Assembly (NCBI GenBank): GCA_033182465.1
Contig: CP137330.1
Span: forward strand, 620,001-684,000
Reading direction: 5' to 3'
Length of the DNA stretch: 64,000 bases
DNA from: Sanghuangporus weigelae
Taxonomy: Eukaryota; Basidiomycota; Agaricomycetes; Hymenochaetales; Hymenochaetaceae
The notes beneath the pieces were generated by a model. The model had not been told where the DNA came from and searched no databases. It saw only the letters and a list, made by a program, of their open reading frames with translations. This document shows positions 38,596-63,838 of this stretch, one piece after another. A program made the position numbers and the translations under genes. Every line of letters starts with the position of its first letter. Positions within the stretch are counted from its first letter, which is position 1.

Positions 38596-39000
38596 AGGTC
38601 CAGCTCGGAATTTTGTTCTCACGATCTCTTCCCGATTGGGTTGTAACAATCCCGTCAGAAGTATCGGCCAAGCCAAGTGCTCCGAGCGACATTCGAACCA
38701 GTGGAGCTATCGGTGGACCGCCAAGCGCTTGACATAATTTCTTCTCGGGAATAACACTGTGTCAGGACTATCGAGAATTTTATCGACCACTATCGGAGAC
38801 ACGGAGCAATGTGCAACGAGTAGCGAAACCAGAACGCGGGCGAAAGCTCTTGTCAGATGACTGTAATAACGTGCATTCCGTAGTTAAGTTGCATATTCAC
38901 TGAACGAACTTAAAACTTTGGAAAAGGATAGTTTTCAAATAGTTCCTCACAAAGTCCGAGTCTCGAGGTCGATGCACATGTCGTCTCTCGTCGTGTCTTT

Positions 39001-39815
39001 TCACAATACCGATATGGTCCTTTCATACCGTATCCTCCTCAGTCCTCACTGACCTCATGTACACATGTAATCTGTGGTCCATATATTCTCCCTCAACGAC
39101 CAATGATCTCGTTGTCCATGATGATGTCTACTGTATTACTGACGATAACAACACACGCTCCCACCTCTCCCATACGATTACAATGCTCTCGAACCTTACC
39201 TTACCTTTCAGAGCAGATCATGAAGCTCCACCACACAAAACACCATCAGACATATATATGTTACCGCACTCAACGCAACCGAGGCGGACATGTCAATCAT
39301 TCGCTATTCTGGAAGAATCTTGCTCCCTGTAAGGAAAAGGGGGGCAAAGGCGGTCAACTTGACTCAAACACGTCTTTCGCGAAGGCAATTCAAGAGGAAT
39401 TCGGCAGTCTCCAGACTCTGATTGATAAATTCAACACGGCCACTCTTGCAATCCAGGGATCCGGATGGGGATGGCTGGTAAGTGATAGGAAAAACCCTTT
39501 TCAATTGAGATGTTTGAAGAGTTTTCATTTCCGCTCTCTCAGGGTCTTAACCCGACCACAAAGAAGCTCGAGATTGTGACGACGATGAACCAGGACCCCC
39601 TCCTGACCCTCCTCCCGATCATAGGTATCGATATCTGGGAGCACGCCTTCTACCTCCAGTACCTCAATGTGAAGCCTGATGTATGTTTTCACTTCTCTGT
39701 TATCTTTCGTTGGTGTTCTGATTATAGTTTAGTATCTCAATGCGATCTGGAACGTTATCGACTTTGATGAAGCCGCGAAGCGCTTCGACGCGGCCGTTAC
39801 ACGTCGGCGTTGATG
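39001..39815 (+). pseudogene. Mn superoxide dismutase copy 1 (pseudogene)
   Basis: Same layout as copies 2 and 3 but broken in several ways. The start ATG is ATA (39006-39008). The following intron donor GT is AT. About 70 bases of exon 2 (the [10 protein letters not shown]...LKFNGG part) are missing near 39275. A duplicated CTTAC changes the frame at about 39200. The end of exon 4 is frameshifted after KRFDAAV, so the usual TQGIDAGKV tail is lost. Ligand regions such as [10 protein letters not shown] are still readable. Decay is recent, since much of exons 2 and 3 is identical to the intact copies. Confidence 0.85.
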
Positions 39816-39829
39816 CAGGAAAGGTCTAA

Positions 39830-41863
39830 AGTGGCATAGGTATTGAAAGATCTCGTTAGTGAAAGTAAACAGTTCCCGTTCTTGTAGCTTTGCGCATTTA
39901 AGGATGAAAAGAGACTGAAGAATCGAATAAAGCAATTACCACACGGAAGACTGGGAAATTGAAGATCATGAAGAAGAGTGCCTCAATTTGGATGCTTATA
40001 TACAGCCGCATAGCCGCGCTGGATGTAAGAAGCAAGTGATATAAACGATAGGCCACTGCGAGTTAAGTAAGCATACAACAAGACATGTGAGGAAACTGCA
40101 TATGCACCTGACACGGTTTGGGGTTCGTGACGCTGAAACTCGGGACATGGTTAGGATAGGAGAGGAGTAGAGAAGCAAGAGCGAGGGGAGGCATATCAAC
40201 AGTCAAGGGAATGCGCCAAGAATTTGGAACTTAAACTGGAACTTATCCATATACACAGGTCTTGGACGTCACTTCCTATGCAGCGCAAAAACGCTTACAC
40301 TCCACTACGATATTTGTTCAATATGTGTTATGATGACGACCCGCAACAAAACAGCCAGGATCCATCAGACACCAGACCGTGTTATGAAGAAGTCGGATTC
40401 GCAAAGACATCGGAATCTATTTGTTTTGCGTTGCCTTCCTGTCCGAGGTCGAAAGAAACGGCTGGTGACACGCTTATTTATTATAGAAGGAAATGCTGAT
40501 ATTAATGTGCCGAGATAATTTCGGGAAGACCCGAAATTAAAGACGAGCAAGGACATGTGTCTGTAGGTGTCTGTTTCAGGTGAACTTCTGAGAAGACGAT
40601 GCGTGAATCCAGACTCGCAGATTCAGTCTGAGAAGGGGTCTATGATATCAGAGTAAACGTCGTTTCGTGTTCGTCATGTGTCTATACGGATTAACAGCAA
40701 ACACAATAAGCTATAGAAATCAAAATTAGCCCAATGCCGTATGTAGAAGAAAAGCAAAACGTAACTCATTGTATACTTTTTGGACCAATGAAGACCAACA
40801 AGCTATCACGCCTCTTCTGTCTTCTCCGTGCCCAAATAATCTAATCGAGCCACTCCACAAGAAGCTAATAATCCGATTCGATTCCAGTATCTTCCCATCT
40901 CGCGCTCCCCTTGGGTTCGGTACCTTCCACAGCGCCGAAATCATGGTTTCCTTCTTGTTGCGCATATTTAGCCGATACGTGACGTAAGTTTGTAGGTTGT
41001 GGACGTCTCTGAGCGTAGTAGGACTATTGGTGCGGAGAGTGGCTCGGACGTAAACATCCTCATGTCGAACATGCGGAATGCCAACCGATAATGCCGCAAG
41101 AAGATCTGATGCAGAAAGGTGTACGACGGAGATGAACGGAGCTTCCGCAACTATCTGACCTTGTAGACAGATTCCGACTTCAATGGGCCATATTCGTCTT
41201 GTCGAGTCTAGCGATGTGACATGTGCTTGTTCTGATCCGTGGAAGAGAATACAGCTGCCGTGACATGTGACATATGACTTTGGACACTGATAAGGTGCTT
41301 TTCGTTTTGGTGAATGTCATCGCCGTTTGCTACTCGCCTGCGTTCCTGACTCTTGTTTTCCTCGGCTGAAGGAAGAGTACCCTCGTCAGAAGACGGGATT
41401 GGAGCGGTGAAGTCGACTCGCTGACGGTCACCAGGCTTATCGATGTTATATTCAGCGGATCCATGAAATTAGGTAGTGCAATCAATGTCCAAATTCTTTG
41501 TGCATAAGGGTATCTGTTGTCCTGATGTGAAAAGACACGGATACGACAGCAAGACACTAATTCTTCATTGTTCTTGTCTAGAAATTTACCTTGAATTTTT
41601 GAAACTCGAGGCAATGGGGAATACCATTCCTCCGTGTCGTCTATGTTTTACTCCGAGTCGGTACCTAAAAGTGCGATCGGTCGAGCTTTGTAATGCGTTC
41701 TCACGGCCACTTCCCCGATTGGATTGTATTCTCGCAGTTTCTCTGCGTCCTTCATTCTGGACTTACTGTACAAAAAGGACGTTACTTTTTGTACATTTCG
41801 AAATCCGTTATAACATTATAACTGCGTTCTGGACTTCTATGCGACTTCTGGAACCAAGAGGCC
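39830..41863. other. Spacer of array unit 1
   Basis: No intact gene. It matches the spacers of units 2 and 3 over most of its length, with a deletion near 39930. Short open frames on both strands are not conserved as protein between units. Runs such as 41330-41614 (-) may be remains of an older gene. Confidence 0.5.
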
Positions 41864-42066
41864 GGGCAACCGAACACAGGTAACCTCATTGACTCATTGA
41901 TCACTTGGTCGATATACCATGGTCGAGGTTACACTAGACTGGGCAACTGGATACAGGTAACCTCATCGTCGACATACCATGGACGAGGTTACAAAGCGTT
42001 GGGCAACAGAACACAGGTACCTCATCGATCACTTCGTCTAGTCGTCGACATACCATGGGCGTGGTT
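41864..42066. repeat. Minisatellite at the junction of units 1 and 2
   Basis: Three tandem copies of 60-77 bases (starting about 41864, 41941 and 42001). Each contains GGGCAAC-GA-ACAGGTAACCTC, then CGA-ATACCATGG-CGAGGTTAC. GTAACCTC and GAGGTTAC within one copy are inverted repeats that could form a hairpin, with CCATGG between them. Confidence 0.75.
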
Positions 42067-42545
42067 CGTCAAGGAGGCACCGATCAAGTCATGTGTTCCG
42101 AGCGACACTCAAACTGGTAAAACTGTTGGGACTGTTTGTGCGCCGTAGGGCGCCTGACATGATTTCATCCCGGGAGTAAGACTGCGCTAGGGTCTTTGAG
42201 AATCCTACTAATCACCATGGATCAGATACGGGGCAATGTGCAACAAACAGGAAAACAGAACGGGCGAAAGCTCTTGTCAGGTGACTGTATTAACGTGCAT
42301 CCCGCAGATTTAAGTTGCATATTCTTTGAACTTAGTATGCGCTTTGAAAAAAGATGATTTAGATCAGAAACTCTCTAAGTCGAGCACAGTATAGTTTGGG
42401 TACACTGGAAAGTTACGATAAGCGTGACAGCACGAAAGACATAAAAGGAGCCCGTTTTTCACCCGACGAACTCAGGTTTCCCCTCTCATCTGCCTCTCAT
42501 CGTCTTACTTCTGATTCTTGTCGTCTCTCGTCGTCTCTATTCACA

Positions 42546-43428
42546 ATGACGGTATGGTCCTTTCATACCGTATCATCCTCAGTCCTCACTGACCTCGTCT
42601 ACACATGTAATCCGTCGTGCATGTATTCTCCCTCAATGACCAACGATCTCGTTGTCCATGATGACACTGCTGTACTACTTACGACAACAGCACACTCTCC
42701 CACCTCTTTCATACGACTACAATGCTCTCGAGCCTTACCTCTCAGAGCAGATCATGAAGCTCCACCACACAAAACACCACCAGACATACGTTACCGCACT
42801 CAACGCTGCCGAGGAACAATACGCCAAAGCATCCACTCCGAAGGAGCGAATCGCCCTTCAGGGTGCACTCAAGTTCAACGGAGGCGGACATATCAATCAT
42901 TCGCTATTCTGGAAGAATCTTGCTCCGTCTAAGGAAAAGGGGGGCAGAGGCGGTCAACTCGACTCAAGCACGTCTTTCGCGAAGGCAATTCAAGAGGAAT
43001 TCGGCAGTCTCCAAACTCTGATTGATAAATTCAACACGGCCACTCTTGCAATCCAGGGATCCGGATGGGGATGGCTGGTAAGTGATAGGAAAAACCCTTT
43101 TCAATTGAGATGTTTGAAGAGTTTTCATTTCCGCTCTCTCAGGGTCTTAACCCGACCACAAAGAAGCTCGAGATTGTGACGACGGTGAACCAGGACCCCC
43201 TCCTGACCCTCCTCCCGATCATAGGTATCGATATCTGGGAGCACGCCTTCTACCTCCAGTACCTCAATGTGAAGCCTGATGTATGTTTTCACTTCTCTGT
43301 TATCTCTCGTTGGTATTCTGATTACAGTTTAGTACCTCAATGCGATCTGGAACGTTATCGACTTTGATGAAGCCGCGAAGCGTTTCGACGCGGCTGCTAC
43401 TCAAGGCATTGATGCAGGAAAGGTCTAA
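42546..43428 (+). CDS. Mn superoxide dismutase, cytosolic type (copy 2, intact)
   Basis: Converts superoxide to O2 and H2O2. Exons: 42546-42551, 42691-43077, 43143-43280 and 43333-43428, about 209 residues. The first coding exon is just ATGACG; after a 139-base intron the protein continues [15 protein letters not shown]. This gives the short N-terminus of cytosolic Mn-SODs, without a mitochondrial presequence. Metal ligands are visible in [12 protein letters not shown] (His), [11 protein letters not shown] (His) and [10 protein letters not shown] (Asp and His). Gln in [12 protein letters not shown] is the Mn-type second-sphere residue. Ends [14 protein letters not shown]-like cataaaagg is near 42439-42447. 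A longer in-frame start at 42658, inside the intron, would add [11 protein letters not shown], which is less family-like. Confidence 0.9.
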
Positions 43429-45833
43429 AGAGGCATAGGTATTGAAATGTCTCGTCAATGAAAGTAAATAGCTCTCGTTCATGTAGCTTTGCGCATTTAA
43501 AGTTGAGATGAGATTGAAATATCGAGTAACATGCTGAGGATGCGTGTCCTGGAACGACTGAAAGCAATCTGAGTACAATCTGTCGCCTGTGACCTTTGAA
43601 AAGGATCGATTCACTCTCAAATGCATGAGGCTTTGATCTAAATCATAGGCTATCGGCTACCTGTCTCTCGTTCGTCAGGTCACCGCTGTATGCGTTACAA
43701 AGTACTTCACGAGTCATTACTACGTTCATAAGTATGAGAAAGTAAATTGATACTTACTACTATCAGCGCATGCTCCCGTTTCGGTATAACACCCTTCCAA
43801 ATCTGGCGCGTTGAGTCGGCTGTACCATGCAAGCTGGGAAGAATGGGCTGATGTAGGGTTAATAAAGTCGGGCAAAGTATAGGAACAGATCGTCTTACGC
43901 TCGTTCTAAGACCAGTTCGCAGGACCGACAGAATTGTCAACACACACAAGCCAGGAGGAGGATTTGGAAAATTGAAGACTTTGAAGAAGAGAGTTTCGTG
44001 CCAGATGTAAGGGCTCTGTAAAGAGCCGCGTCGCAGGCTACTTAAACTGCAGAGTCGTGCTGGATATATGTAAAAAAGTAAGTAATACAAACAGTAGTCC
44101 GCTGCCAGTCAAGTAAGGATACAAAGGGATAGATGAGGAGTCTACATCAGCATTGATGCAGTTTGGAAGTTACGATAAGACGAGTCCAAGCGCTGGAACT
44201 CAGCTCAGGAAAGGAAGGGGTAGAAAAGCGATTGCGAGAAGACAAGCAAGCTCAAGGGAATGCGTCAAGGGTTTGGAACTTGAACCAGAAGTCATCCATT
44301 TAGGTCTTGAACGTCAATTCTTATATAGTGCAAAATCGATTGCATTCTACTGCAATACTTCTTCCGACGGCGACCCGCTACAAGACGACCGAGATCCGTT
44401 GAGTACCAGATGGGCCGACAGGTGAGATGGAGAATGGTATTAAAATTTGGATTCTCGAAGACATCGGGATCTCTTTGCTCTGCGTTGCCTTCTCACTCCT
44501 GGTCGAAAGAAACGGCAACTAACACGGTTATTTATTTATAAAAAGAAATACTGATATTAATGTGCTGAGGCAAATTCTGGAAGACCGGGTAGACGAGCAA
44601 CGACATGTGCCTTTGAAGTAAGCTTCTGAGAAGAGGCTGTGTGAATCCAGACTCGCGGATTCAGTCTGAGAAGGGGTCTATGATATCAGGGAAAGCATCG
44701 TTTCGCAGTTGCCATGTGTCTATACGGATAAACGACAAACACAATATACTACATAGGATTGAAAGTCAGCCCGATGTCATATAGAGAAGAAAAGCAGAAC
44801 GTAACTCATGTATACTTTTTGGTCCAACGAAGACCAACAAGTTATCAGGCCTCTTCTGTCTTCTACGTGCCCGCCAAATATCTAATCGAGCTACCCCACA
44901 AGAACTTAATAATCCGATTCGATCCCAATATCTTCCCATCTCTCTTCTCCGTGCCGATACTAGACACGGCTCTCTCCGTGCTGCATATGTCCACTCGCGA
45001 AGTGATATGCGTTTGCAGAATCAGAAAGTGTTGTGAACGTTATCATTCTCGTGTCGAACATGCCGATGGTCCAATCTGCTGGTGATATCTCAAGAAGATG
45101 GCGCGGAAAGGTATGCGAGCGAGATGAACGGAGCTTCTGTGACTACTTGACCTTGTAGACAAGTCTTGATGAGTCTAACGATGCGATGTATGCCCGTTTC
45201 TATCCGCTGAAGAGAAAGCAGCTGCCGCGACACGCGACATATGACTCCCGAACACTGATAAAGGTGCTTTTCATTTTGGTGAAACTGCGTCATCGCCGTT
45301 TGCTACTCCCTGGTGTTTCTGACCCTTATCTTTCTTGGCTGAAGGAAGAGCACGTCGGGATTTGAGCGGTGAAGTCGATTCGCTGACGGTCACCGGGCTT
45401 ATCTATGTCGTTTTCAGCGAATCTATGAGATTAGGAAGCGCAATCTTCTGAATGTCTGTCTGAATTATTTGCATAAGGATATGTGTTGTTCTGCTGTGAA
45501 AAGATGCGGATGAGACGGTGAGATATCAAACCTTCAATACTTTTGTCTGGTACCTTACCTTAGAATTTGAAGCTCGAGGCAATGAGGAATTCCGTTCCTC
45601 CATGTCGTCGATGTTCTACTCTGAAATCGATACTGAGTTGAAGATACGGATTGCGATTGTTCAAGCTTGGTAATACGTTCTCATGACCACTTCCTGCCTA
45701 AGTCACAGGGAATTCTCGCAGTTTCTCTGCATCCTTCGTTCCGGACTTGTTGTACAAGAGTAGTTATAGTATGATAACAGATTTCGAAACGTGCAAAACG
45801 AAACAAAACGTAACGTCTTTCTGAACCAAGAGG
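43429..45833. other. Spacer of array unit 2
   Basis: Contains the 3' flank of SOD copy 2 and unit-specific spacer sequence. On the minus strand near 43770 a short phrase GCYTETGACA corresponds to the better kept relic in unit 3. No intact gene. Confidence 0.5.
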
Positions 45834-46014
45834 CCAGACAACCGAACACAGGTAACCTCATTGATCACCTCGTGGTCACGGTTACAAGACGTCGGGTGAT
45901 CGAACAGAGGTACCTCACTGGGTCGACATACCATGGGCAGGGTTACAAGAGGCTGGGAAACAGAACACAGGTACCTCATCGATCACTCCGTCGACATACC
46001 ATGGGCGTGGTCCT
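45834..46014. repeat. Minisatellite at the junction of units 2 and 3
   Basis: Three tandem copies of about 60 bases (starting near 45834, 45894 and 45954), homologous to the repeat at 41864-42066: GAACA-AGGTA-CCTCA, GTCGACATACCATGGGC and GGTTACAAGA. The inverted GTAACCTC/GAGGTTAC pairing is weaker here (GTACCTC and GGTTAC). Confidence 0.7.
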
Positions 46015-46479
46015 CGTGAAGGAGGCACCGATCAAGTCACGTAATTAGAGCGATACTCAGCTGTTGGGACTGTTTGCGGCGCTTTACATGATTCCAGGAG
46101 TAAAGCTGGGCCGGGGCTATTGAAAATCCCAAGGACCACTATCGGAGACACGGAGCAATGTGTAACAAACAGGGAAGGAAACCAGTGCGCGGGCGAAGGG
46201 TCTTGCCAGGTGACTGCACTAACGTGCATCCCGCAGATTATAGTAAGTTACATATTCATGGAACTTAGTATGCACTCTGAAAAAGGATCGTTTAGATCAC
46301 AAATCCTCTAAGTCGATACACAGTATAGTTTGGGGACACTGGAAAGTTAAGATAAGCGTGACAGCACGAAAGACATAAAAGGAGCCCGTCATTCACCCAA
46401 CGAACTCAGGTTTCCCCTCTCATCTGCCTCTCATCGTCTTACTTCTGATTCTTGTCGTCTCTCTTAGTCTCTATTCACA

Positions 46480-47362
46480 ATGACGGTATGGTCCTTTCAT
46501 ACCGTATCATCCTCAGTCCTCACTGACCTCGTCTACACATGTAATCCGTCGTGCATGTATTCTCCCTCAACGACCAACGATCTCGTTGTCCATGATGATA
46601 CTGCTGTACTACTTACGACAACAGCACACTCTCCCACCTCTTTCATACGACTACAATGCTCTCGAGCCTTACCTCTCAGAGCAGATCATGAAGCTCCACC
46701 ACACAAAACACCATCAGACATACGTTACCGCACTCAACGCCGCCGAGGAACAATACGCCAAAGCGTCCACTCCGAAGGAGCGAATTTCCCTTCAGGGTGC
46801 ACTCAAGTTCAACGGAGGCGGACATATCAACCATTCGCTATTCTGGAAGAATCTTGCTCCCTGTAAGGAAAAGGGGGGCAGAGGCGGTCAACTCGACTCA
46901 AGCACGTCTTTCGCGAAGGCAATTCAAGAGGAATTCGGCAGTCTCCAAACTCTGATTGATAAATTCAACACGGCCACCCTTGCAATCCAGGGATCCGGCT
47001 GGGGATGGCTGGTAAGTGATAGGAAAAACCCTTTTCAATTGGGAAGTTTGAAGAGTTTTCATTTCCGCTCTCGCAGGGTCTTAACCCGACCACAAAGAAG
47101 CTCGAGATTGTGACGACGATGAACCAGGACCCCCTCCTGACCCTCCTCCCGATCATAGGTATCGATATCTGGGAGCATGCGTTCTACCTCCAGTACCTCA
47201 ATGTGAAGCCTGATGTATGTTTTCGCTTCTTCGTTATCTTTTGCTGGTGTTCTGATTACAGTTTAGTATCTCAATGCGATCTGGAACGTTATCGACTTTG
47301 ATGAAGCCGCGAAGCGTTTCGACGCGGCTGCTACTCAAGGCATTGATGCAGGAAAGGTCTAA
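46480..47362 (+). CDS. Mn superoxide dismutase, cytosolic type (copy 3, intact)
   Basis: Exons 46480-46485, 46625-47011, 47077-47214 and 47267-47362, the same structure as copy 2 including the 6-base first coding exon. The proteins differ at only a few visible sites: Ser for Ala after KERI, Cys for Ser in NLAP(C)KEKGG, and Met for Val in VTT(M)NQD. All metal ligands are kept. Introns and the 3' flank are also nearly identical to copy 2, so this is a recent duplication or gene conversion. A TATA-like cataaaagg lies near 46374-46382. Both intact copies are likely expressed from similar promoters. Confidence 0.9.
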
Positions 47363-50030
47363 AGAGGCATAGGTATTGAAATGTCTCGTCAATGAAAGTA
47401 AATAGCTCTCGTTCATGTAGCTTTGCGCATTTAAAGTTGAGATGAGATTGAAGTATCGAGTAGCTTGTTGAGGAGGCATGTCCTGTAACAATTGGAAACA
47501 ATCTGAATACGATCTATTACTTGTGACCTTTGACAATGAAAGATTTAGTCTCGAGTTTCTGAGGTTTTCATAGTTGTTATATCATAATCAAAAGCGTAGG
47601 CCACCGGCTACCTAGCTCTCGTTCGTCCGGTCACTGCTATATGCATTACAAAGTACTTCACGAGTCATTATTATGTTCATTAGCACGAAAGGAACAAATT
47701 GATACTTACTTCCACCACCACTGAATCGCACATGCTCCTGTTTCGGCATAGCACGCTCCCAAATCTGGAATCGTTACATCGAGATCGGATGTACCATGCG
47801 AACAGGAAGAATTACTTGATATAGGATTAATAAAGTCGGGTAAAGTAGAGGAACGGAGTGTCTTACTCCTGTTCTTAGGCCGGTTCTCAGGACCGACGGA
47901 ATTATCAACATACACAAGCCAGGAGGGTCTGGAAAATTGAAGGCCGTGAAGAAGAGAGTTTCGTACTAGATGTAAGGACCTCGTAAACGCCGCGTCGCAG
48001 GCTACCTGAACCACAGAGCCGTACCAGACATATGTAAAAAAGCAAGCAATACAAACAATTAATAGGCCTCTGCCAGTCAAGTGAGGATACAAAGGAATAG
48101 ATGAGGAGTCTGTATCAGCACCTGACGCAGTTTGGGAGTTATAGTAAGACGAGTCTAAGTGCTGGAACTCAGGTTAGGAGTAGAGAAGCGAATGCGAGAG
48201 AAGATATCCAAGCTCAGGGGAATGCGTCAATGATTTGGAATTTGAAACAGAAGTCATCCATTTAGATCTTGGACGTGTATTTTGCAAAAGCGGTTGCATT
48301 CTACTGCAATACTTGTTTCATATTTGTCACGACCACGACGACCCGCTACGAGGCGACCGATATCTATCGAGCACCAGGCCGACAAATGAGACGGAAAATG
48401 TTATGAAAGATCGGATTCTCGAAGACATCGCGATTTCTTTACTTTGTCTTACCCTCTTGTCCTCGATTGAAAGAAATGGCAGTAACACAGTTATTTATTT
48501 ATAGAAAGATACTATTAATGCTCCAAGACCATCTAGGGGACACCCGAAAGATGGCCAAGGACATGTACCTGTTTGAAATGGACTTTCTGAGAAGACGCTG
48601 CGCGAAAGGAACCTTTTGGATTCAATCCGAGAAGGGGTCCGTGATATCGGAGAAAACATCAATCCTTGTTCACCATTAGTCTCCACAGAGCAGTGAAAAA
48701 CACAATATACTAAATAGTTCAATATTAGCTCAATGCCACATGTAGAGGAAGAGCAGAACGTAGTTTATGTATACTTTTAGACCAACCGAGACGGACAAGT
48801 TATCAGGCCTCTTTTGTCTTCTCCGCGCCCGTCAAAATCCAATCCAGCCTCTCCACAGGATGCTATATCTCCTATAGGATCCCAATATATTACCATATCC
48901 AATGTTCGGGATCGGCAACTTCCATGGCGCAGAAAGTGTTGTGGGTATGCCCGCGTGTTGTAGGACTATTGGTGCGGAGATGCTGAGCGAGAAGGGCTTG
49001 GATGTAAACGTCCTCGTATCGAATATGCAGGAAGATGTGCGAGGGTGATGAACGGAGCTTCTGCAACTATTTGACTGCGTAGACAGATTCTCAACTTCGA
49101 CATTCCATACTCGTATCGGCTAGACGAGCGATACGCTATATGCCTATTTCTAATCAGTTGGAGCGTAGACAGATGCAGTATTTGTTTCTTTGATTTTGAG
49201 CACCGACCAGGGTGTTCTTCGCTTTGGCGAAGCTGTGTCATTTTACGTCAGTCACTCACCAGCGTCTCCGACTCTTACCTTGGTCAGCTGACGGAAGAGC
49301 AATATCGCCGGAGGATGAGATGTGAATATCCCAAATCCGATGAGGTTATTCATAATCTCAGTCGGCAGCGAGATATACGCCAGACGAAGAGGATGAAATC
49401 GACTCATGGATGAGGAGTGTGATGGTGGCACGCCAGCGCCTAATCTATCTTCATCTCAACATTTTTGTGAGAAGCGATACGGGCTGAAGAGAAATGATTT
49501 GATCGCTCTTTTATGAGCCTCAGAGAGTGGCCTTCGAAGAACTTCAAGAAGAAATATTTATGAACCTGAAGTTCACGTCGAAATAGGCAGCCTGAAACAG
49601 GCAATGGCACGGCACGTGACCGGCTGCCGCTACAAATGAATATAATTTGCCACCTACGAATACGATTTATCTTAGATTCCGACGATTCCACACATAATGT
49701 ATAGCGACAGCGACGACTCGCATTGTCTTAGATGATTATTTCTCCGAATAGAATGTGCAGTAAATGAGCTTTCATAAAAAGTCGCTTCTCAGATGTCCTG
49801 AGTCCTCTGATTTTACTATTTCCCTTTGTATAACGGTAGACTCGTCTCTGTGACGGTTACTTGGCTTATTGATGGTATTCCAACCATCGAAGTCATAGTG
49901 AGATCTCCTGAATGTCAGATCCTTAGCATAAGGGTTTTGACCTGCGGAAAGACGCGAACGAGCGAGTGAGACATTCATCCTTTATTGTTTCTGTATTTGA
50001 CCTGTGCTTTCGAAGCACGACGCGATAGGG
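47363..50030. other. Spacer of array unit 3, fading into unique sequence
   Basis: Matches the spacers of units 1 and 2 as far as about 50030. It includes the minus-strand relic below. A minus-strand frame at 49772-49978 (QNPYAKDLTFRRSHYDF...) aligns in position with 41330-41614 and 45470-45560, but not as conserved protein. No minisatellite follows this unit. Confidence 0.5.
47640..47960 (-). pseudogene. Possible relic of a small Cys/Trp-containing protein gene inside the SOD unit
   Basis: The minus strand reads SDLDVTIPDLGACYAETGACAIQWWW; then, across a well-formed 60-base intron (GTAAGT...GCAG), NDRTNES and a stop. The Cys...GACAIQWWW pattern recalls the C-terminal part of small secreted fungal proteins related to copper or chitin binding, but I cannot assign a family. 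Upstream parts are not convincing. The same place in unit 2 has GCYTETGACADS with the Trp run lost, and unit 1 has it deleted, so the gene is decaying in the array. Confidence 0.35.
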
Positions 50031-50935: not shown

Positions 50936-53900
50936 ATGTCATCGGTCTCTAATTCCGCGCCGTACGTCCCTGTCTTCTCGCATCTGAGCGTCTATGATGA
51001 TAACAGTAACACGACTTTTTGGCTCAGCAGCGATGGTCGTAAGCCATCTGTGGGCGCCCCAGCAGGCCTGGAAACTCGTCCCTTTGAAAAACCTCATCCA
51101 CTGCGGATTTCCATGCAATCGGATATCTCTGACCTATCTATCGATTCCTCTCCCTCGAGAAGCTTGAATACTGGATACCATGGACCCATTATACCTCCGA
51201 ACTCAGACAGGAGCTTTCGCCGGCGAACGCTAGTTGTTTGCTTTGACGGTACCGGAGACCAGTAAGCCCGCGCCCTCTCGTATATCCAGGGATCTTTCTT
51301 ATGAATTCTCTTCTGCAAGATTTGACTTGGATAATTCGAACGTGATCAACTTCTTCTCGGTGCTCAAGAAGGGTGACAGGAAGAGGCAGCTAGTCTACTA
51401 CCAGGTATTATATTTCACTGGTTACGTTTTTTTTTCTTTTGGCTAAACCTGTTCTTTAGTCCGGTATCGGGACATATTCAATCCCACAAGTTGCGACTCC
51501 GTTGTTCACTAAAGTCTCAAAGACGCTCGACCTCATGTTCGCAAACAACCTCAATCATCATGTCATGACTGGTTACCAGTTTCTCATGCAAAATTGTGAG
51601 TCCGCGTCTCTTTGCTTTTGGTCTCGAGAAAGACCGCGAAAATGATTGCGGGCGCTGTCACGGCGTACGGCGGTGCCCTTACATGATATTCAAATTCGGA
51701 GCTATTTTTCCGTCTGACGTTGCATTTCTGACTCTTACTCTGCTTGTCTATTTTCTCGCAGATAAATCTGGAGACAAGATATGTATATTCGGCTTCTCGC
51801 GCGGCGCCTACACTGCTCGTGCACTGGCCGGCATGATTCATAAAGTAAGTAATACGTTTCATTTTCAAAATGAACTCCGTTCTCTCGGAGCTACAGCTAG
51901 ATAAGGCGATGTACTAAATTCATGCGTTTTTTTATTGATACTTAGGTCGGCCTCCTTCCTGCTGGGAACGAACAGCAGGTACCATTTGCGTATAAGATGT
52001 TTAAAAACGATACTGAGGTCGGATGGGAGCAAAGTGTGGCGTTCGTGAGTTTTGGCATTTCCGAGCTTGGGAATAATCAAATATATTTATGCCTGAATAC
52101 TTCATACAGAAAAGAACCTTCTGCATAGATGTAGACATCGACTTCGTGGGCGTATGGTACGCGGTCGTCAAGTTTTTACCTCAACTGAGATCTAACCGCT
52201 AGCGTCCATTTTTGTATCATTTCGTAATGCTCCACAGGGATACGGTCGCGTCAGTGGGATTACTGCCTACTACATTACCGTTTACGAAATCCAATACCGC
52301 CATTAAGGTCTTCCGGCATGCGCTCTCGCTAGACGAGCGCCGCGCAAAGTTCCGACCTAGTATCTACGAGCACATTACGGCGGAAGAGGCGAAACGCGGG
52401 GACTTCAAGGTTCCGCCGAATAGGCTTCCTTCAACGACTGTCACCCGCGGTCGGAAGATGCAGAAATCGAAATCGGCTGGTAGAGAAACGACCGAAGTTA
52501 AGGAGATCAAGGAGGAGAGGACGGAATCAAAATCAGGAACTATCGAAAATGGAAAGGTTGTCGAAACAGCTGCGACGAAGGTGATCCGAAGGGACTCTTC
52601 TGCCAAGCGCCGCAGTGGTTCGGGCTCTCGCTCCCGCGCTATCCTCGGCTCGATCAAGCGTCAAGCGCGGACCATATCTGACAACGTGCAAGAGGTGGTC
52701 GAGCGAGTGTCTCTTGATCGCAAGGAGAGCAAACGCAGGGACAAGAACAAAGAAGCCAAAGATGAGAAAGATGCGAAAGAAGAACTCAGTCCGGACAGCG
52801 AACGCGAACAGCTGGAACAGATGTACCTTGATCGCAGTCGTCCAACAGATGTCCTTGAAGTCTGGTTCGCAGGATGCCACTGCGGTGCGTAAGAATCAGA
52901 AGTCGTCATAATCACACTTTACTGACTATCCCTTCTCCGATCCTTGCATATTATGATCAGACGTTGGCGGTGGCTCCGTCCCGAACTCAACGCCCAACAG
53001 TCTTGCGCGGATTCCACTCCGCTGGATGATCAGGGAGTGTTTCCTTGCACGGACGGGTATCCAATTCGAGGCTGAGAGTCTGAAGGCGCTCGGACTGGAC
53101 CCTGCATCTATATACCCGCGAGTGATGAAGACTCCATATACGGAGGAAATGCCACAGTCTGTTCCTGAGCAACAATTCTCGACTCTTTCGAGTCCTCCGA
53201 CACCTGTGACGCCCAGGCCAGCACCCCCGCCGGAACTTGTGAAGCAGTTGTTGGAAGCGGAAGCTGATAAGCGTGCTTCGGAGGAATCTGAATCGACTTC
53301 TAAACAGGAGGTGGCAGTCAAAACCACAAATACGGAGAACACAGCGGGGAATGGAGCTCGAGAAACGGAGAGGGCTGTGACTGTTATTGAGGCGGAGAAC
53401 ATTAACACTAACACTAGCACCGCCGCTTCGCCTGCAGCTGACGCACAAGACAGAGACAACCTCAGCGCTGTTGCTGCTCCGGACATGGACCCGCAGCACA
53501 GTCGACGAAATAACATCTCCTTGGACGCTACACTCGTCAACTTCAGTACGAGTAGCGATAGCCTCGACACCCCTCCTCCCGATGTGAACGTCCAGGGTGC
53601 TTCAGTTGCCTCGTTCAAAACAGAAGACCATCACTCCACATCTGCGTGCGTCCCGCACCTTGAGGGTTATCCCTTCCCTACGAAACACGAACGCGACGAG
53701 TCCCTGCGCCCACCGCCGATCCCTATGCCTGCTGTTTCGTCACTGAAGGCACATGAAGAAGCATTGTTTGCGCTGGAGCGCGAGCAAGATCAATTGGACG
53801 CGAAGTCGAAGATCTACGACCAGCTCAAGGTCGTGAAGTGGTGGTGGATACTTGAGTTCATCCCCTTCCGGGAGCGGATCCAGCGTCGCGACGGGACGTG

Positions 53901-54127
53901 GACGAAGAAGTGGCAGTACGTACAATTTCTTTGCAAGAAACTAACACGGCAATTTGATAATTAACTCTTCTTATTGTGATTTTAGCATGAACCGTGGACG
54001 CGGACGTGTTGTGTCCCAGGACGAGCCTCTCCATGTGCACAGGTCTGTCAAAATGCGCATGGAGGCGAAAGACATCAAGTACAAACCCCGCGTCAAATTC
54101 GAGAAGGATCCTATCTGGGTCGACTAG
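50936..54127 (+). CDS. DUF2235 (Tle1-like alpha/beta hydrolase) protein
   Basis: Start MSSVSNSAPYVPVFSHL; a Ser-rich N-terminus precedes RRTLVVCFDGTGDQ, where this hydrolase fold normally begins. Exons then give FDLDNSNVINFFSVLKKGD, SGIGTYSIPQVATPLF, the nucleophile motif CIFGFSRGAYTARALAGM (G-F-S-R-G, Ser candidate), VGLLPAGNEQQVPFAYKMF, WDTVASVGLLP and GCHCDVGGGSV (Asp/His region). About 130 charged, Ser/Lys/Glu-rich residues are inserted between RAKFRPSIYEHI and DVLEVWFAGCH, and another low-complexity stretch (about 53100-53650) precedes a conserved C-terminus (WWWILEFIPFRERIQRRDG, YKPRVKFEKDPIW). DUF2235 members include bacterial phospholipase effectors; substrates of the fungal proteins are unknown. 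Stop TAG 54125-54127. Confidence 0.85.
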
Positions 54128-57509: not shown

Positions 57510-57788
57510 AGGTTAACCAGAATCTGTAGCATCAGGTCTTACCGCGTAGCTGAAAGTGATACCATCAAATTACAGAGGAAGAATCTTTCCATCTGTATTG
57601 TGTGTGATTTATGTATGAGTCAAAGGCCGGATGACCTATGTGTGCGGACGAATGTCAGGTAGTCAGAAAGTGAAAGGCAGAAAGAAACGGAATCAACTCG
57701 CGTTATTTGCACTTATTTGGCTTCCATAAATGGGTATCTCCCGTAGGACGCGTGTACTTGAGAAGTGCCTTCGTTGACAACCGCCATC

Positions 57789-59858
57789 ATGAGGATATCT
57801 CGTGCTCTTCTGGTTACGTCGCTCATTGCAGGAGCAGCCAAGGCTGTCCCATATAATGAGCTTGACTTTCAGACCGTGTTTGATGCTCTCAGCTCGTCAG
57901 GGTACTCAGACGTTGTCGAGAAACTGGGTTCTGCTGCGGAGGACGTCATCGATGCGGTGGCGAAGGGTCGCAAAAACGTGCTAGACGGAACGAAGAAGCT
58001 AGCTCAAGAAGCAGAGAAGAAGATCGGGCATTACTGGAAGGATGGAGCGTTGCGCGAGTTCATTGAACAACATGGCGTTTCTTGTGCGTATCACTTGGGG
58101 GCTATTAAGTATACATTGGTGCTAATGTTACATGTCAGACGAGTTGCATAAGAATCCTGAATTCCAGGAATATCAGATGCGTGTGACAGAACCGAAGCTC
58201 TGCGATCCTGGCGTGCAGCAATACTCGGGTTATCTAGATGTAACTGATGGGAAACATTTGTTTTTCTGGTAAGATCGTACTATTCTCGTAATCTATCTAG
58301 AAATGAATCTCGTGCAATCACAGGTTCTTTGAGTCACGGACATCTCCTGAAGACGCGCCTCTTATTCTTTGGTTGAATGGCGGTCCGGGTTGCAGTTCTT
58401 CTACGGGACTCCTCTTTGAACTTGGTCCATGCAGTATCGCCAACGAAGGTCACAACGTCACCTATAATCCGCACAGCTGGAATTCGAATGCAAACATCAT
58501 CTTCCTTGATCAACCTGTCAATGTTGGATATTCTTACTCTGATGACGGATCTTCTGTCAATAATAGTCCTGCGGCGGGAGAAGACGTGTTGGCGTTCCTT
58601 CAGCTGTTCCTCACGCGTTTCCCGAAGTACGCCGATGCTCCCTTCCACATTGTTGCGGAGAGCTACGGTGGCACCTATGCGCCGAACTTCGCGAGCATTA
58701 TTTACAAGCACAACAAGGCCTTGGAATTCACTGGAAAACAGGACAATGTCGTCAAGATCAACTTGGCTTCTGTTATGATTGGGAACGGAATGACGAACCG
58801 TTATATTCAGGACGCGAGCATTCCGACATATGCTTGTGATGGTCCATTCCCCTTGTATGACGACCCAGAAGGACCCGAATGCACGTCTTTGAAGGGTAAG
58901 GTACCGACATGCCAACGAATGACCGATGCCTGCCACAGATTCAACTCCCGTTTCACCTGTGTCCCTGCTACACTCTACTGCAGTGTTGCGTTCTATGGCC
59001 CCATTCAGCGTAAGTGTCCATATTAGCACTCTTCGGGTATCATTTCGGATGTCCCTATTTCAGAGAGCGGGAAGAATCCGTACGACGTACGTAGGACGTG
59101 CAACCCTGAGGAAGATACTTCTCTCTGTTACAAGCAGATGGGCTGGGTCGAAACTTGGATGAACGATGAAGAGAACAAGAAGGCAGTTGGAGCGAACTCA
59201 GCAGTCGAGTTCGCCTCCTGCAACATGCAGATCAACCAAGCATTCACGATGCAAGGAGATAGCATGCACAATTCGGCCCTTCTTCTGACGGACCTCATTA
59301 ATGATGGCGTACGCCTGCTTATTTACGCTGGCAATGCAGATTACATGGTTCGTTCATTTTCATTCGTCCATCCTTTGCTCTTCGACTGACTTCATCTTAT
59401 TTGAATTCAGTGCAACTTCATTGTATGTTCTTCTCATTTTACACATATCATAGATAAATGCTGACCAGCGGTTTGTTGATATAGGGCAATGAAGCTTGGC
59501 TTGAGGAGATGGACAGCAAGTTCCACGATGAATTTGCTGCATTTGAAGCCCAGCCATGGATAACTCTGGACGGTGGAAAGCTCGCTGGCTACGTGCGAAC
59601 TGCCGGCGCTACTGAGCTCACCGCTGGCAATGTCACTTTCGTTACCATATACGACGCAGGGTGTGTATATCTTAAATCTAGAACTCTCTTGTTGGTACTG
59701 ATCTTGACTCGTTCATAGACACATGGTCCCGTATGATCAGCCAGAAGCTGCTTTGGTACGTGTGAAATCTCCTCGCGACCTCTAGTACTCGGTTCTTATA
59801 TCTTTGTGCGCAGGACCTTGTGACAAGGTGGATCTTCGATACACCTCTTGTTAATTGA
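57789..59858 (+). CDS. Serine carboxypeptidase (S10, carboxypeptidase Y-like), secreted or vacuolar
   Basis: Removes C-terminal residues in vacuole or medium. N-terminal signal peptide MRISRALLVTSLIAGAAKA, then a propeptide. The mature part starts near CDPGVQQYSGYLDV. Motifs: LILWLNGGPGCSSSTGLLFE, HIVAESYGGTYAP (catalytic Ser), LLIYAGNADYM|CNFI|GNEAW (catalytic Asp) and AGHMVPYDQPE (catalytic His). The CNFI segment is a separate 12-base exon (59411-59422), and splicing it in restores the usual NGDADxxCN-like core. Ends DLVTRWIFDTPLVN with TGA 59856-59858. All triad residues present. A possible TATA-like ccataaatg is near 57723. Confidence 0.92.
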
Positions 59859-60024
59859 TGTCTAGATTTCTGGATGGAGCTGGTAGCTCTAATGTTAGAT
59901 GACGACAGCTCTCTGAATTGTATATGTTATTTTGTACCATACATACATGCGAACACTGATGAATCCATTTGAATATCACTGTAATCCGCAGGTGTTAATT
60001 AACATTTCGCCCAAAGAATGTGTT

Positions 60025-61423
60025 TCATCCCACAACTATTTCGCTCTGTAATCCATTGCCACTACCGGTAGGATCAATGAACAGAGTTGCTTGTGAACCA
60101 TTCCGGCCCCAGAAACGCTCGCTTTCGAATGACCAATATATCACACCCTGAATGCAATCACCAAGAGCCCGAGCGTAAATCGCAACATCCGTGGGAGTGT
60201 ATATATTGGAGTTTCTGGACTGAGGCTCTGAACTTTCACGCAGCACCTGCCCTTGTAGGATGGAGAATGAGCGCAATCGTTCTGAGCAGAGTTCCTTTGC
60301 GCGAATAATGGCAGACGGGATGGATAAATTTTGTTCGTCTGCGAGGAGTTTGACGACGTTGTGCGCAGGAAGGTTTTGAGGGCTATTTTGACTGAGTGCT
60401 CCGGCACATGCATAGATATCCTGGGGAAATGAAAATCAGCTTAAGAGTAGCTGCTATTACACGAAGGATCTTACCAACGCGTATACAATGATCTCTGCAG
60501 CAGCATCCCTAACGTCTCTCATCAACACCTTTATATAATTTCGCGGAGGCTCTTCGGAAAAAGACCTGAGCCCGTATGCGTATTCAGTTAAGATGAACAA
60601 CGGGGCATGCCAGCCACGTTGTCGTTGCCGAGTTATGCAGTCTTTTGTACTCTGTGAAGACTTAGATCCAACTAGCCCTCCAAGTTGCTCTAGTAGGAGT
60701 TGAAGATAGCCCTGGACGGCTATTCGGAAACGATCATATGCATAGCCTGCTTCAGGAGAGTATTCAAGTCGACGGAGAATGCTTTATTAAAAGCAGTTCA
60801 TTTAAAATTCTTTAGGAGCTGGCAAATGCGAACAAACATACCCACTTTTGCAGTCCCTTGGTAAGTCCAGGATCAGAAATTCCCGTGCAGCCAGGTTCAT
60901 CCTCAGTAAGACGTATGTTCTCTTCAACGCAATTTCTCCCTCCCTCGCCGTCGTAGCTCGCAAGACAGTAATCAAGGAGCCATATCCATGTCAGAAAGTC
61001 GGCACATAGCCTTAACTGGTTATAATCGGACTTTGGAAAACACATTGATGCGAGAAGGCCAATTTTCAGATCCAACGTCTGGCTTTCTTCATCTCCTTCA
61101 AGGCCCGATCGAGCATCTTTGACAATGTCTGCTTTCTTGATTCGAAATGGGGATAACCCAATGTTCTCTGCAGCCCAAGCATCTGATGCTTCAGAAACTA
61201 TTTTGCAGAGAGGATTGATACGGAAGTCGCGAGCAGAATTCGGCAGAGACGCCAGGAGGTCAGAGGGACTGATTTGAAGTGTGTGCGGAGGAGTCCCGCG
61301 ATCAGGGGAGTGAGGAACCCATGACAGGACGTTTCGGAGAGAAGCTATGGCATCTGTAAGGATACTGGCCATAATGAGCGATGCCGATAGGCGAAGAGGA
61401 AGGACTTCAACTTGAAAATTCAT
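60025..61423 (-). CDS. Class-I terpene-cyclase-like protein with degenerate metal-binding motifs
   Basis: Exons 60846-61423, 60475-60781 and 60025-60420 give about 426 residues. Similarity to fungal sesquiterpene-synthase-type proteins is seen in LLASMCFPKSDYNQLRLCADF then LTWIWLLDYCLA (site of the Asp-rich motif), GYAYDRFRIAVQGYLQLLLEQ, RQRQRGWHAPLF, DVRDAAAEIIVYALDIYACAGA (site of the NSE/DTE motif), AHNVVKLLADEQN and a C-terminal YWSFESERFWG. In active enzymes the first motif is D(D/E)xxD; here only the first Asp remains (DYCLA). The second is NDxxSxxxE; here it reads LDIYACAGA, lacking Asn, Ser and Glu. Either it lost cyclase activity or it does something else. First ATG used; MASILTD at 61372 is an alternative. 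Confidence 0.7.
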
Positions 61424-61790: not shown

Positions 61791-63838
61791 ATGAGGCTGC
61801 AAGGCTTGTTCTTTGCAACTTTGCTGCAGACACTAGGCGCATCGCCAACCGTTGACCAGGGATCAGCCAAAGCATGCCGACTGTTGAATGAGAGCCTTCC
61901 AGAACTCGTATATTTCCCGGGTAAGCTACCTCAAACGCCATGCTTCCTTTAGTGTTGACGAGGTAGTTGACGTATGAATTGATGGACTCGTTTAAAGGTG
62001 CTGCTCAGTATGTAAACGACACTGCTCATTGGGCTATCTCGAGCAAACAAAATGCAACTTGCTCTGTTGAGCCAGAAAGTGCAGACGGTGTCAGCTCCAT
62101 AGTAAGTCTCAAAACAACTGCTATGAATTTCAACAGACGCCCATGCTAACTGTTTTATAGGTGAGAATCATTGGCCGACCAGATATCCGATCGCCATTTG
62201 CTGTAAGTCGCGTTCACGTCCTCCGTACAGACGCCATATTCTGATTGTCGACTAAAAGGTGAAATCCGGTGGTCATGCGTACAATCTTGGCCAAAGCTCG
62301 ACTCCTGGTGTTCAAATATCATTGGCACGGTTTACGAACATCAGCTATGATGCTGAAAGGGGAACAGTGACGATCGGAATGGGCCTGACATGGGCCCAAG
62401 TATACGAATACCTTGAGCCTCTGGGTGTCATGGTAGTAGGTGGTCGAATAAATTCGGTCGGTGCGTTAAGTCTTTCTCGTCTCTCGTGCCAGACAAAGGA
62501 CGAGCCTTTTTGTCTTCTCATTTTCTCTCTTTCTAGGCGTCGGAGGTTTGAGTTTGGGAGGCGGCTATTCATGGAAAACAAACCAATATGGTTTAACGAT
62601 CGATACCATTGTAGCCCATGAACTTGTCTTGCCTACTGGTGAGCAAATGCGCGTTTCGAACACGTCGTATCCGGACCTCTTCTTTGGTCTGAAGGTGCTT
62701 TCAAGGAAGTGCTTCATCCATGTACCGTTCTGACTGGATGATCCCTAGGGAGGGCTAAACAATTTTGGGATAGTCACCGAAATTACATACGAAGCACACC
62801 CACAGACTCTTGTCTACGTGAGTCATTTTTTTTTGTTTCTCCAAGAGTTTCATGGTAACGCATTCCTCAAGGGCGGTTTGACCACATACTCGACAGACAA
62901 TGAGACCATTGCCCTAGTGAATAGCGCAGCGAGTAACTTTTCGCTGAAAATTATCGATCCAAAGGCACAGATGATCGTCAATTATGCCTCAGTTAATGGG
63001 GAAGTTCGTCGCTCGTATAGTCACACTAGTCATTTGCGCTCACATGATCTATAAATTATTTTGCAGTTTGTTGCGCAAACTTTGATCTTTTACGACGGGC
63101 CTACTCCGCTAGCCGGTGTCTACGATGAACTCCTAGCTATTCCCTCGGTCTCGACAAACGTTAGAAAGAGCACCTTCAGGGAATTCATGGCTTCATCCGA
63201 AGGTGCACTGAGCGCTGATGCGTTCGGGTGAGCTTTTCCGTCAGCGACAGCTACCTATGAGTTTACTGGCGGATCATAGCGTTGCACAACACGCGATCCC
63301 GATCACCAAATATACGGTTCCTGTACTTGAAGAAATGATAGCGCAGGTGACTGCATTTGGCCAGAGATTGACCGAGCAGAGCAACGGTTCGTCGATTCTC
63401 GTGGTCGTACAACCTGAACCGTTCTACCAACCCTTTACACGTTCGCGCGGAGGAGCCTACCCGCATTTTCCTGACCACGAGCTGACACCAGCTTGTCCAT
63501 TCATTGTGTATTCCGCAAACGCAAGTGACCCTTTAGGTATGCTACGTGTTCCTGTCTATATCTCTTATGATATTCATCATTATTCTGTAGACGTTCAGCA
63601 AGCTCGTCATGATTATTTTGTGAGCGAGCTAAAGAGCTTCGCCCATTTGATTCAAGCCAAAGCCGTGGACGAAGGAGTGAGCCGATGGGACGACATCTTA
63701 TACCCGAACTACGCACTTGTCGATACTCCTCTTGAACTCGTGTACGGAGAAAATGTGCCGCGTTTGCGAGAAATAGCAGCCAAATACGATCCGGAAAGGC
63801 TGATGACGTTAACTGGTGGATTCCGTTTCCTGGATTAG
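61791..63838 (+). CDS. Secreted FAD-linked oxidase (berberine-bridge-like, PCMH-type FAD domain)
   Basis: Starts MRLQGLFFATLLQTLGASP, a signal peptide. About nine exons. FAD-domain landmarks: SADGVSSI|VRIIGRPDIRSPFA|VKSGGHAYNLGQS (SGGH holds the FAD-linking His in this family), ISLARFTNISYD, GRINSVG|VGGLSLGGGYSWKTNQYGL, IVAHELVLPTGEQM, FFGLK|GGLNNFGIVTEITY. The substrate domain runs to WDDILYPNYALVD...YGENVPRLREIAAKYDPERLM, with the terminal aromatic-rich GGFRFLD. An intron at about 63536-63588 removes a stretch that would otherwise read as protein. The Cys that makes the second FAD bond in bicovalent members is not obvious, so single attachment is likely. The substrate is unknown; the divergent neighbour suggests specialised metabolism. 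Confidence 0.85.

Follow-up and report, generated by a model that had tools for sequence, protein, structure and literature searches.

We analysed a 64,000-nucleotide stretch of the genome of the wood-decay mushroom Sanghuangporus weigelae (contig CP137330.1, positions 620,001 to 684,000; hereafter the window), which carries at 60025..61372 on the minus strand a gene for a terpene-synthase-like protein. The protein has lost the Asp-rich motif, the NSE triad and the diphosphate-sensor Arg of class I terpene cyclases, and is probably a non-catalytic pseudoenzyme that selection has retained, a description that includes service as the partner subunit of an active enzyme. Computation supports this interpretation through homology, predicted fold, a single group in the tree, motif losses in every member that covers the motifs, and non-neutral evolution. 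Class I cyclases ionise diphosphate by a three-Mg mechanism, which should fail here because all three elements are lost. Judged by these residues, Mg-dependent ionisation of a prenyl diphosphate would be impossible in the usual way, and we infer that the protein has taken on a new role.

Residue numbers refer to the 409-residue form of the protein, which starts at the second Met (61372). The DDxxD position (residues 134-138, 60959..60973) reads D134-Y-C-L-A138 both in the window and in P0001, the corresponding protein (ACEPAI_3055) of another S. weigelae assembly, and NHCLA, DHYLA, NHYLA and EHHLA in the other four full-length members of its family. The first Asp of the motif is D, N, D, N and E in P0001-P0005 and H and Q in two N-terminal fragments, and both the second acidic residue and the last Asp, which has become Ala, are gone from all five full-length members. 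The NSE position (residues 278-286, 60397..60477, split by intron 2) reads L278-D-I-Y-A282-C-A-G-A286 in place of N-D-x-x-S-x-x-x-E, and the whole triad is missing in the same five proteins. An earlier, sequence-only reading had given DYCLA and LDIYACAGA at these two places, with Asn, Ser and Glu replaced by Leu, Ala and Ala, exactly as found here.

At the diphosphate-sensor position (residues 228-234, 60607..60627) QRQRGWH replaces RRDTSGC. The Arg 46 residues before the NSE Asn, which by convention we take to be the sensor, is Gln in five of five full-length members and Arg in 107 of 107 catalytic rows of our alignment (112 rows: the 5 full-length proteins plus 107 of the 117 non-family matches described below). 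Q228, R229, G232, W233 and H234 are identical in the five members; W233, H234 and the likewise identical C283 are new relative to the catalytic rows. The C-terminal WSFESERFWG (residues 374-383, 60106..60135) is retained, as the sequence-only reading had noted, and WSFESER(F/Y) is common to catalytic basidiomycete synthases. The Arg of its RY pair is kept in all five members, and the Tyr has become Phe in the four Sanghuangporus proteins and is still Tyr in Fomitiporia. A 'DEQN-like helix', also proposed as a marker of the fold, is not known to be diagnostic.

Conservation among the catalytic rows reaches 95% or more in 100 columns of the alignment; the family keeps 27 of these in all five members, 27 in some and 46 in none. 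Three reversals of charge with respect to the catalytic consensus (K to D64, E to K222 and D to R328) are identical in the five. A metal site built of Cys was considered. Four or more of the five members have Cys in eight columns, of which positions 111, 123 and 323 are Cys in most catalytic rows too; the idea was dropped for lack of coordinates.

The coding sequence is divided into exon 1 (60846..61372, extending to 61423 if an upstream in-frame ATG is used), which contains DYCLA and ends in phase 2, exon 2 (60475..60781) and exon 3 (60025..60420, with the stop codon TGA at 60027-60025). They are separated by intron 1 (60782..60845; GTGGGT...ATAAAG, 64 nt, phase 2) and intron 2 (60421..60474; GTAAGA...CCCCAG, 54 nt, phase 0). 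Translation from 61423 would give 426 amino acids instead of the 409 from the annotated start, and the exons 61423-60846, 60781-60475 and 60420-60025 on the minus strand do join into an open 426-residue frame, as had been claimed for the three exons. P0001, which differs from the window protein at 4 of 409 residues, agrees with this structure and starts at the second Met. With A at -3 and G at +4, the combination favoured around start codons, that Met has the better context of the two ATGs.

Intron 2 falls between the first and second NSE residues, and does so in nine of nine models of catalytic paralogues from the same genome, built with our own script. The codon that ends exon 2 encodes the Asn of NSE in all nine models and is TTG (Leu) in the focal gene. 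Intron 1 lies in the same alignment column in seven of the nine and a few columns away in the other two. The splice model of the focal gene is therefore credible, since its intron positions and phases match those of catalytic paralogues.

The structure predicted from the 112-row alignment is an all-helical class I cyclase. A prediction from the family alone was poor; catalytic homologues were then added and, given the bias that this brings, the poor model was searched as well. The comparison with class I cyclases proposed in the sequence-only reading thus yields a match of fold, and a weaker one with the family-only alignment. PDB 5imn is by its title an aristolochene synthase N299A/S303A with a bound compound, so that a folded, ligand-binding barrel is compatible with the loss of two NSE residues.

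Distribution and descent of the family

With the window protein as query a first search returned five proteins, and a profile made from these five added the two N-terminal fragments. The family has at least seven members; the searches scored only ~8000 candidates sharing most words, so more may exist. Its full-length members are four Sanghuangporus proteins and one from Fomitiporia mediterranea. The orthologues in three other Sanghuangporus and in F. mediterranea lack both DDxxD and NSE, and the two partial homologues, which stop before NSE, lack DDxxD. The search for orthologues with the same substitutions, suggested at the outset, thus shows motif losses common to every member that covers the motifs. 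All five full-length members score above the cut-off of the Pfam family PF19086 when spliced proteins are used (window protein 29.8 bits, P0001 31.2 bits, cut-off 23.7). P0001 and P0005 match NCBIfam models only at scores far under the curated cut-offs, but so does the catalytic P0009, and these matches therefore say nothing about the product.

Among the relatives read, these losses are rare. Of 377 proteins matched, 120 matches were listed, three of them from the family, and the remaining 117 proteins were read. NDxxSxxxE is kept in all 117, and D(D/E/N)xxD, placed 110-160 residues before NSE, in 116. A looser Asp pattern, present in 117 of 117, was dropped in favour of the placed count; it also matches an acidic loop in seven of seven family members. 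Scanning the 33.9-Mb assembly with PF19086 gave 16 exon matches at 10 other places, the focal exons not being among them. The nine paralogue models, read by eye, keep D(D/E/N/Q)xxD and NDxxSxxxE. The tenth place (C2:3681491-3681730) holds a terpene-synthase fragment that covers neither metal motif, perhaps a true relic, which would set it apart from the focal gene. On contig C1 (3925107-3973658) five terpene-synthase genes are packed into ~50 kb; one model there, C1b, lacks a stretch and the C terminus and may be decaying.

As catalytic relatives carry the motifs, we take these to have been lost rather than to have been absent from the start; if the orthology is right, the losses would predate the split between Sanghuangporus and Fomitiporia. 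Maximum-likelihood analysis of 37 rows puts the seven from the family on one side of a branch with support of 100/100 and a stem of 2.4 changes per site, and a tree without the fragments gives the same outcome for the five full-length rows, with a stem of 2.9. The tree was midpoint-rooted for drawing only and both runs flag long branches, so that the nearest catalytic lineage is not fixed.

The catalytic paralogue C8 is 98% identical to P0008, named as S. baumii, and the focal protein is 82% identical to P0003, another S. baumii protein. A record with the wrong name would explain this, as would much faster evolution of the focal gene. A comparison of focal and paralogue divergence between S. 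weigelae and S. baumii was dropped, as P0003 and P0008 may come from records of different origin.

Sequence constraint

Over 409 aligned residues the four Sanghuangporus proteins show zero indels at 80-86% identity, and none of the five full-length members contains a stop. For comparison, the window coding sequence was mutated at random with transition/transversion ratios of 2 and 4, a neutral simulation that works at the protein level and ignores indels and codon selection. Drift to 82% identity introduced a mean of ~4 stops, leaving 1% and 0% of 300 runs stop-free at the two ratios, and drift to 46% identity a mean of ~12, with 0 of 600 runs stop-free.

The replacements that did occur are mostly milder than neutral ones. 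Against Fomitiporia their mean BLOSUM62 score is -0.28 to -0.34, compared with means of -0.80 and -0.75 and a highest value of -0.37 in 600 neutral runs; among the other three Sanghuangporus proteins it is 0.14 to 0.37, compared with ~-0.6 and a highest value of 0.10. Eight catalytic control pairs have means of -0.19 to 0.44. Columns conserved in the catalytic enzymes are also more conserved within the family, catalytic positions excluded (rho 0.25, P 4e-6), and this also holds for the four Sanghuangporus by themselves (rho 0.12, P 0.03).

Together, stops, indels, replacements and column conservation speak strongly against unconstrained decay. The earlier suggestion that this is not simple decay is well supported by losses shared among orthologues, a predicted class I fold, the lack of stops and the lack of any splice chain that restores NSE. 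The associated question of a neutral substitution pattern has a divided answer: the expected stops are unseen and replacements are milder in most comparisons, but pairs of P0001 with other Sanghuangporus proteins lie within neutral reach.

Candidate roles and competing explanations

We consider it nearly an even call that the protein is a pseudoenzyme which does something other than serve as a partner subunit, most likely the binding of a ligand. Our more specific proposal, that it is a carrier, sink or sensor of a hydrophobic terpenoid or prenyl ligand in the helical barrel, is tentative. A member of a fungal class I sesquiterpene-synthase lineage would have lost its metal- and diphosphate-binding residues before Sanghuangporus and Fomitiporia diverged, and the resulting pseudo-terpene-synthase would then have been retained by selection. 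Its helical barrel would persist and still enclose a hydrophobic terpenoid or prenyl ligand, allowing the protein to act as carrier, sink or sensor for what a genuine synthase makes. The N-terminal helix might hold the protein near membranes, and the ligand might be handed to tailoring oxidases such as the berberine-bridge-type (BBE) and cytochrome P450 enzymes encoded next to it. Taken as a whole, the picture of an ancient, selected Hymenochaetaceae pseudoenzyme family that acts as a metal-free terpenoid carrier or sensor, is drawn to membranes by an amphipathic helix and feeds adjacent BBE and P450 enzymes is on the unlikely side.

The N-terminal helix is predicted for P0001 at residues 2-16 (61325..61369, minus strand), and a similar, moderately amphipathic stretch occurs in seven members and is rare in 113 catalytic rows. 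The best N-terminal hydrophobic moment is 0.37-0.49 in the seven; the catalytic rows have a mean of 0.25, and 4 of the 113 reach 0.367. Shuffles of the same N-terminal residues do as well in 2-22% of cases, so that membrane binding by this helix is only a suggestion.

The BBE gene, an FAD-linked oxidoreductase on the plus strand (approximately 61791..63838), is the divergent neighbour, ~420 bp from the focal start. Past it, ~0.8-3 kb beyond the window end, lies the P450 gene, with two exons identified by Pfam and the rest by eye, and then a serine hydroxymethyltransferase gene. BBE and P450 genes are frequent in terpenoid clusters, but are found elsewhere too; a small terpenoid cluster around the focal gene is possible. 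The convergent neighbour is a serine carboxypeptidase S10 gene (approximately 57762..59859, plus strand), and on its side there are also genes for an F-box-like protein, just under the Pfam cut-off, and a glutathione S-transferase. Farther off, the window contains at least three related DNA blocks at 38725-49299 (up to ~4 kb, ~67-94% identity), a local duplication array or a mobile element, and, at 52203-53961 on the plus strand, exons with a Pfam match to Tle1-like proteins (T6SS phospholipase-type catalytic domain).

The main rival to a ligand-binding pseudoenzyme is a non-catalytic partner subunit that pairs with a catalytic sesquiterpene synthase and alters its stability or product, in analogy to the small subunit of plant geranyl diphosphate synthase (GPPS). 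We judge it unlikely. An excerpt of PMC7839719 describes the plant small subunit as ~15% identical to other enzymes, devoid of DDXXD and thought to be regulatory. The shared charge reversals at D64, K222 and R328 would suit a rebuilt surface, and the genome's nine catalytic paralogue models also favour a partner. However, the plant example comes from a prenyl diphosphate synthase, terpene synthases of fungi as a rule need no second type of subunit for activity, and no catalytic synthase gene is linked to the focal gene within the stretch read.

It is also doubtful that the protein is an enzyme with a different chemistry or a rebuilt metal site, working through a displaced acidic motif before helix C or by a metal-free reaction. 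The case for it centres on an acidic stretch at residues 98-101 (61070..61081, minus strand), directly ahead of the helix that comes before the DDxxD helix; the stretch reads QTLD in the window and ETLD or EMLD in relatives. A DExxD-like pattern before helix C is DETLD in Fomitiporia and one fragment, DEIVD in the other fragment and S/N-E-T/M-LD in Sanghuangporus. D101 is derived, being Asp in seven of seven family members and Gly in 104 of 107 catalytic rows. The stretch lies ~36 residues upstream of the DDxxD position, not in the motif's place. Helices are predicted at 104-111 and 117-139, and in the model the stretch should share an end with residues 134-138, the end of helix C lying beside the old DDxxD end of helix D. 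The shared novelties W233, H234 and C283 would also fit, and other fungal cyclases differ in fold, AncA being HAD-like according to part of PMC12001456. Against a rebuilt site, the window strain has Q rather than E at 98, the pattern's first Asp is missing in Sanghuangporus, the acidic stretch is predicted at low confidence, and nothing visible takes the place of the NSE side or of the sensor Arg. The finding of this loop raised our estimate for a different chemistry and lowered that for a ligand-binding pseudoenzyme to the levels given here.

Several observations weigh against a selected, ligand-binding pseudoenzyme. The new acidic stretch at 94-101, perhaps near the mouth of the pocket, could take over metal binding. 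The 112-row model takes its fold from the catalytic rows, and the family-only model reaches a TM-score of only 0.41-0.51 (by its own length) to its matches in Foldseek, which also scores sequence. Among the 46 lost columns, 21 hold one identical new residue in all five members, against a family average of 149 of 392, and invariance so close to that average suggests a pocket without special constraint. The path between Sanghuangporus and Fomitiporia is ~1.3 for the family and 0.30 for the catalytic C8 orthologues, or about four times faster. Replacements between P0001 and the other Sanghuangporus proteins score -0.14 to -0.30, which a neutral run can reach (highest -0.18 and 0.10 at the two ratios); these pairs, at 80-82% identity, compare with 0.22 to 0.44 for four catalytic pairs of 77-88% identity. 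The family is thus under less constraint than enzymes that have diverged to a similar degree. A second measure, the share of replacements with a positive score, is poor at telling the family from neutral runs: it is 0.28-0.30 against Fomitiporia, where the neutral means are 0.23 and the highest values 0.31 and 0.33. That the BBE and P450 genes belong with the focal gene is not a given.

On this evidence constraint on the family is weaker than on an enzyme, since its rate of evolution is clearly above that of its catalytic paralogue. Such a pattern would fit a relic under relaxed constraint that is by chance still open in the species sequenced, for which the faster evolution, the replacements less conservative than in catalytic controls and the narrow known range of seven members can all be cited. 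We regard a relic as improbable, given five full-length members without stops, a simulation that rejects unconstrained drift on stops, and a frame kept through persistence in two genera.

The search for a splice model that restores the motifs covered the 203 open splice chains of the focal gene that retain a long open frame, and neither NDxxSxxxE nor the looser, DTE-like (N/D)Dxx(S/T)xxx(E/D) occurs in any of them; the chain adopted is the one with both introns at the paralogue positions and phases. A third intron, 61123-61079 in exon 1, proposed by our gene-model script, was not adopted, as P0001 reads through that stretch. That an artefact of gene modelling or splicing conceals the motifs is scarcely credible: intron 2 does cut the NSE motif, the donor GTGGGT of intron 1 has GTATGT four bases downstream and the script did place that third intron, but no open chain restores NSE, paralogue models with introns at the same places still read N|D, the four Sanghuangporus proteins (annotated in one study) agree with the separately annotated Fomitiporia protein, and the third intron, missing from P0001, would remove only a loop upstream of DYCLA.

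Relation to known systems

Pseudoenzymes are known from many enzyme families. If the present one is real, it would be a natural example of a cyclase fold kept without its metal cluster, raising the issue of what else such a pocket can do, and genome mining by Pfam counts may list non-synthases as synthases. With four species of Sanghuangporus sequenced and nine catalytic paralogues modelled in this genome, the question could soon be tested. The open-licence literature searched yielded no report of a conserved clade of pseudoenzymes within the class I terpene synthases of fungi, and the locus tags FOMMEDRAFT_145041, ACEPAI_3055 and ACEPAF_2432 were found in no paper in that literature search. 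In the portion of PMC11122449 used here, candidates had to show complete DDXXD and NSE/DTE motifs, a criterion by which the focal protein would be excluded. PMC12001456, in the part drawn on, reports four sequenced Sanghuangporus genomes, with assembly accessions JBKPUL to JBKPUO, and a study of the HAD-like cyclase AncA; the terms 'motif', 'DDXXD' and 'NSE' are all unmatched in its main text.

The closest likeness is to basidiomycete class I synthases, such as the C8 paralogue of the same genome, Copu9 (PDB 7ofl) and Cop4 (PDB 8gr7), with which the focal protein shares the Pfam domain Terpene_syn_C_2, the whole fold, intron positions, the C-terminal WSFESER(F/Y) and the invariant R180, R193, R229, D279, N299 and R380. 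Unlike them it has lost DDxxD, NSE and the sensor Arg, and it is only 21-26% identical to them in the 112-row alignment. Gains of its family are the N-terminal helix and, behind the NSE helix, a lengthened loop; the C-terminal tail is less basic in Sanghuangporus. With the small subunit of plant GPPS, as an excerpt of PMC7839719 presents it, the protein shares kinship to a diphosphate-using enzyme, the loss of DDxxD and very low identity to its catalytic kin; the plant subunit, however, belongs to a prenyltransferase family and forms a heteromer of solved structure. The AncA-type cyclases ACEPAI_7410 and ACEPAI_4311 are, in the part of PMC12001456 used, predicted sesquiterpene cyclases of the same genus, but these are HAD-like proteins encoded by different genes, whereas the focal protein matches class I cyclases.
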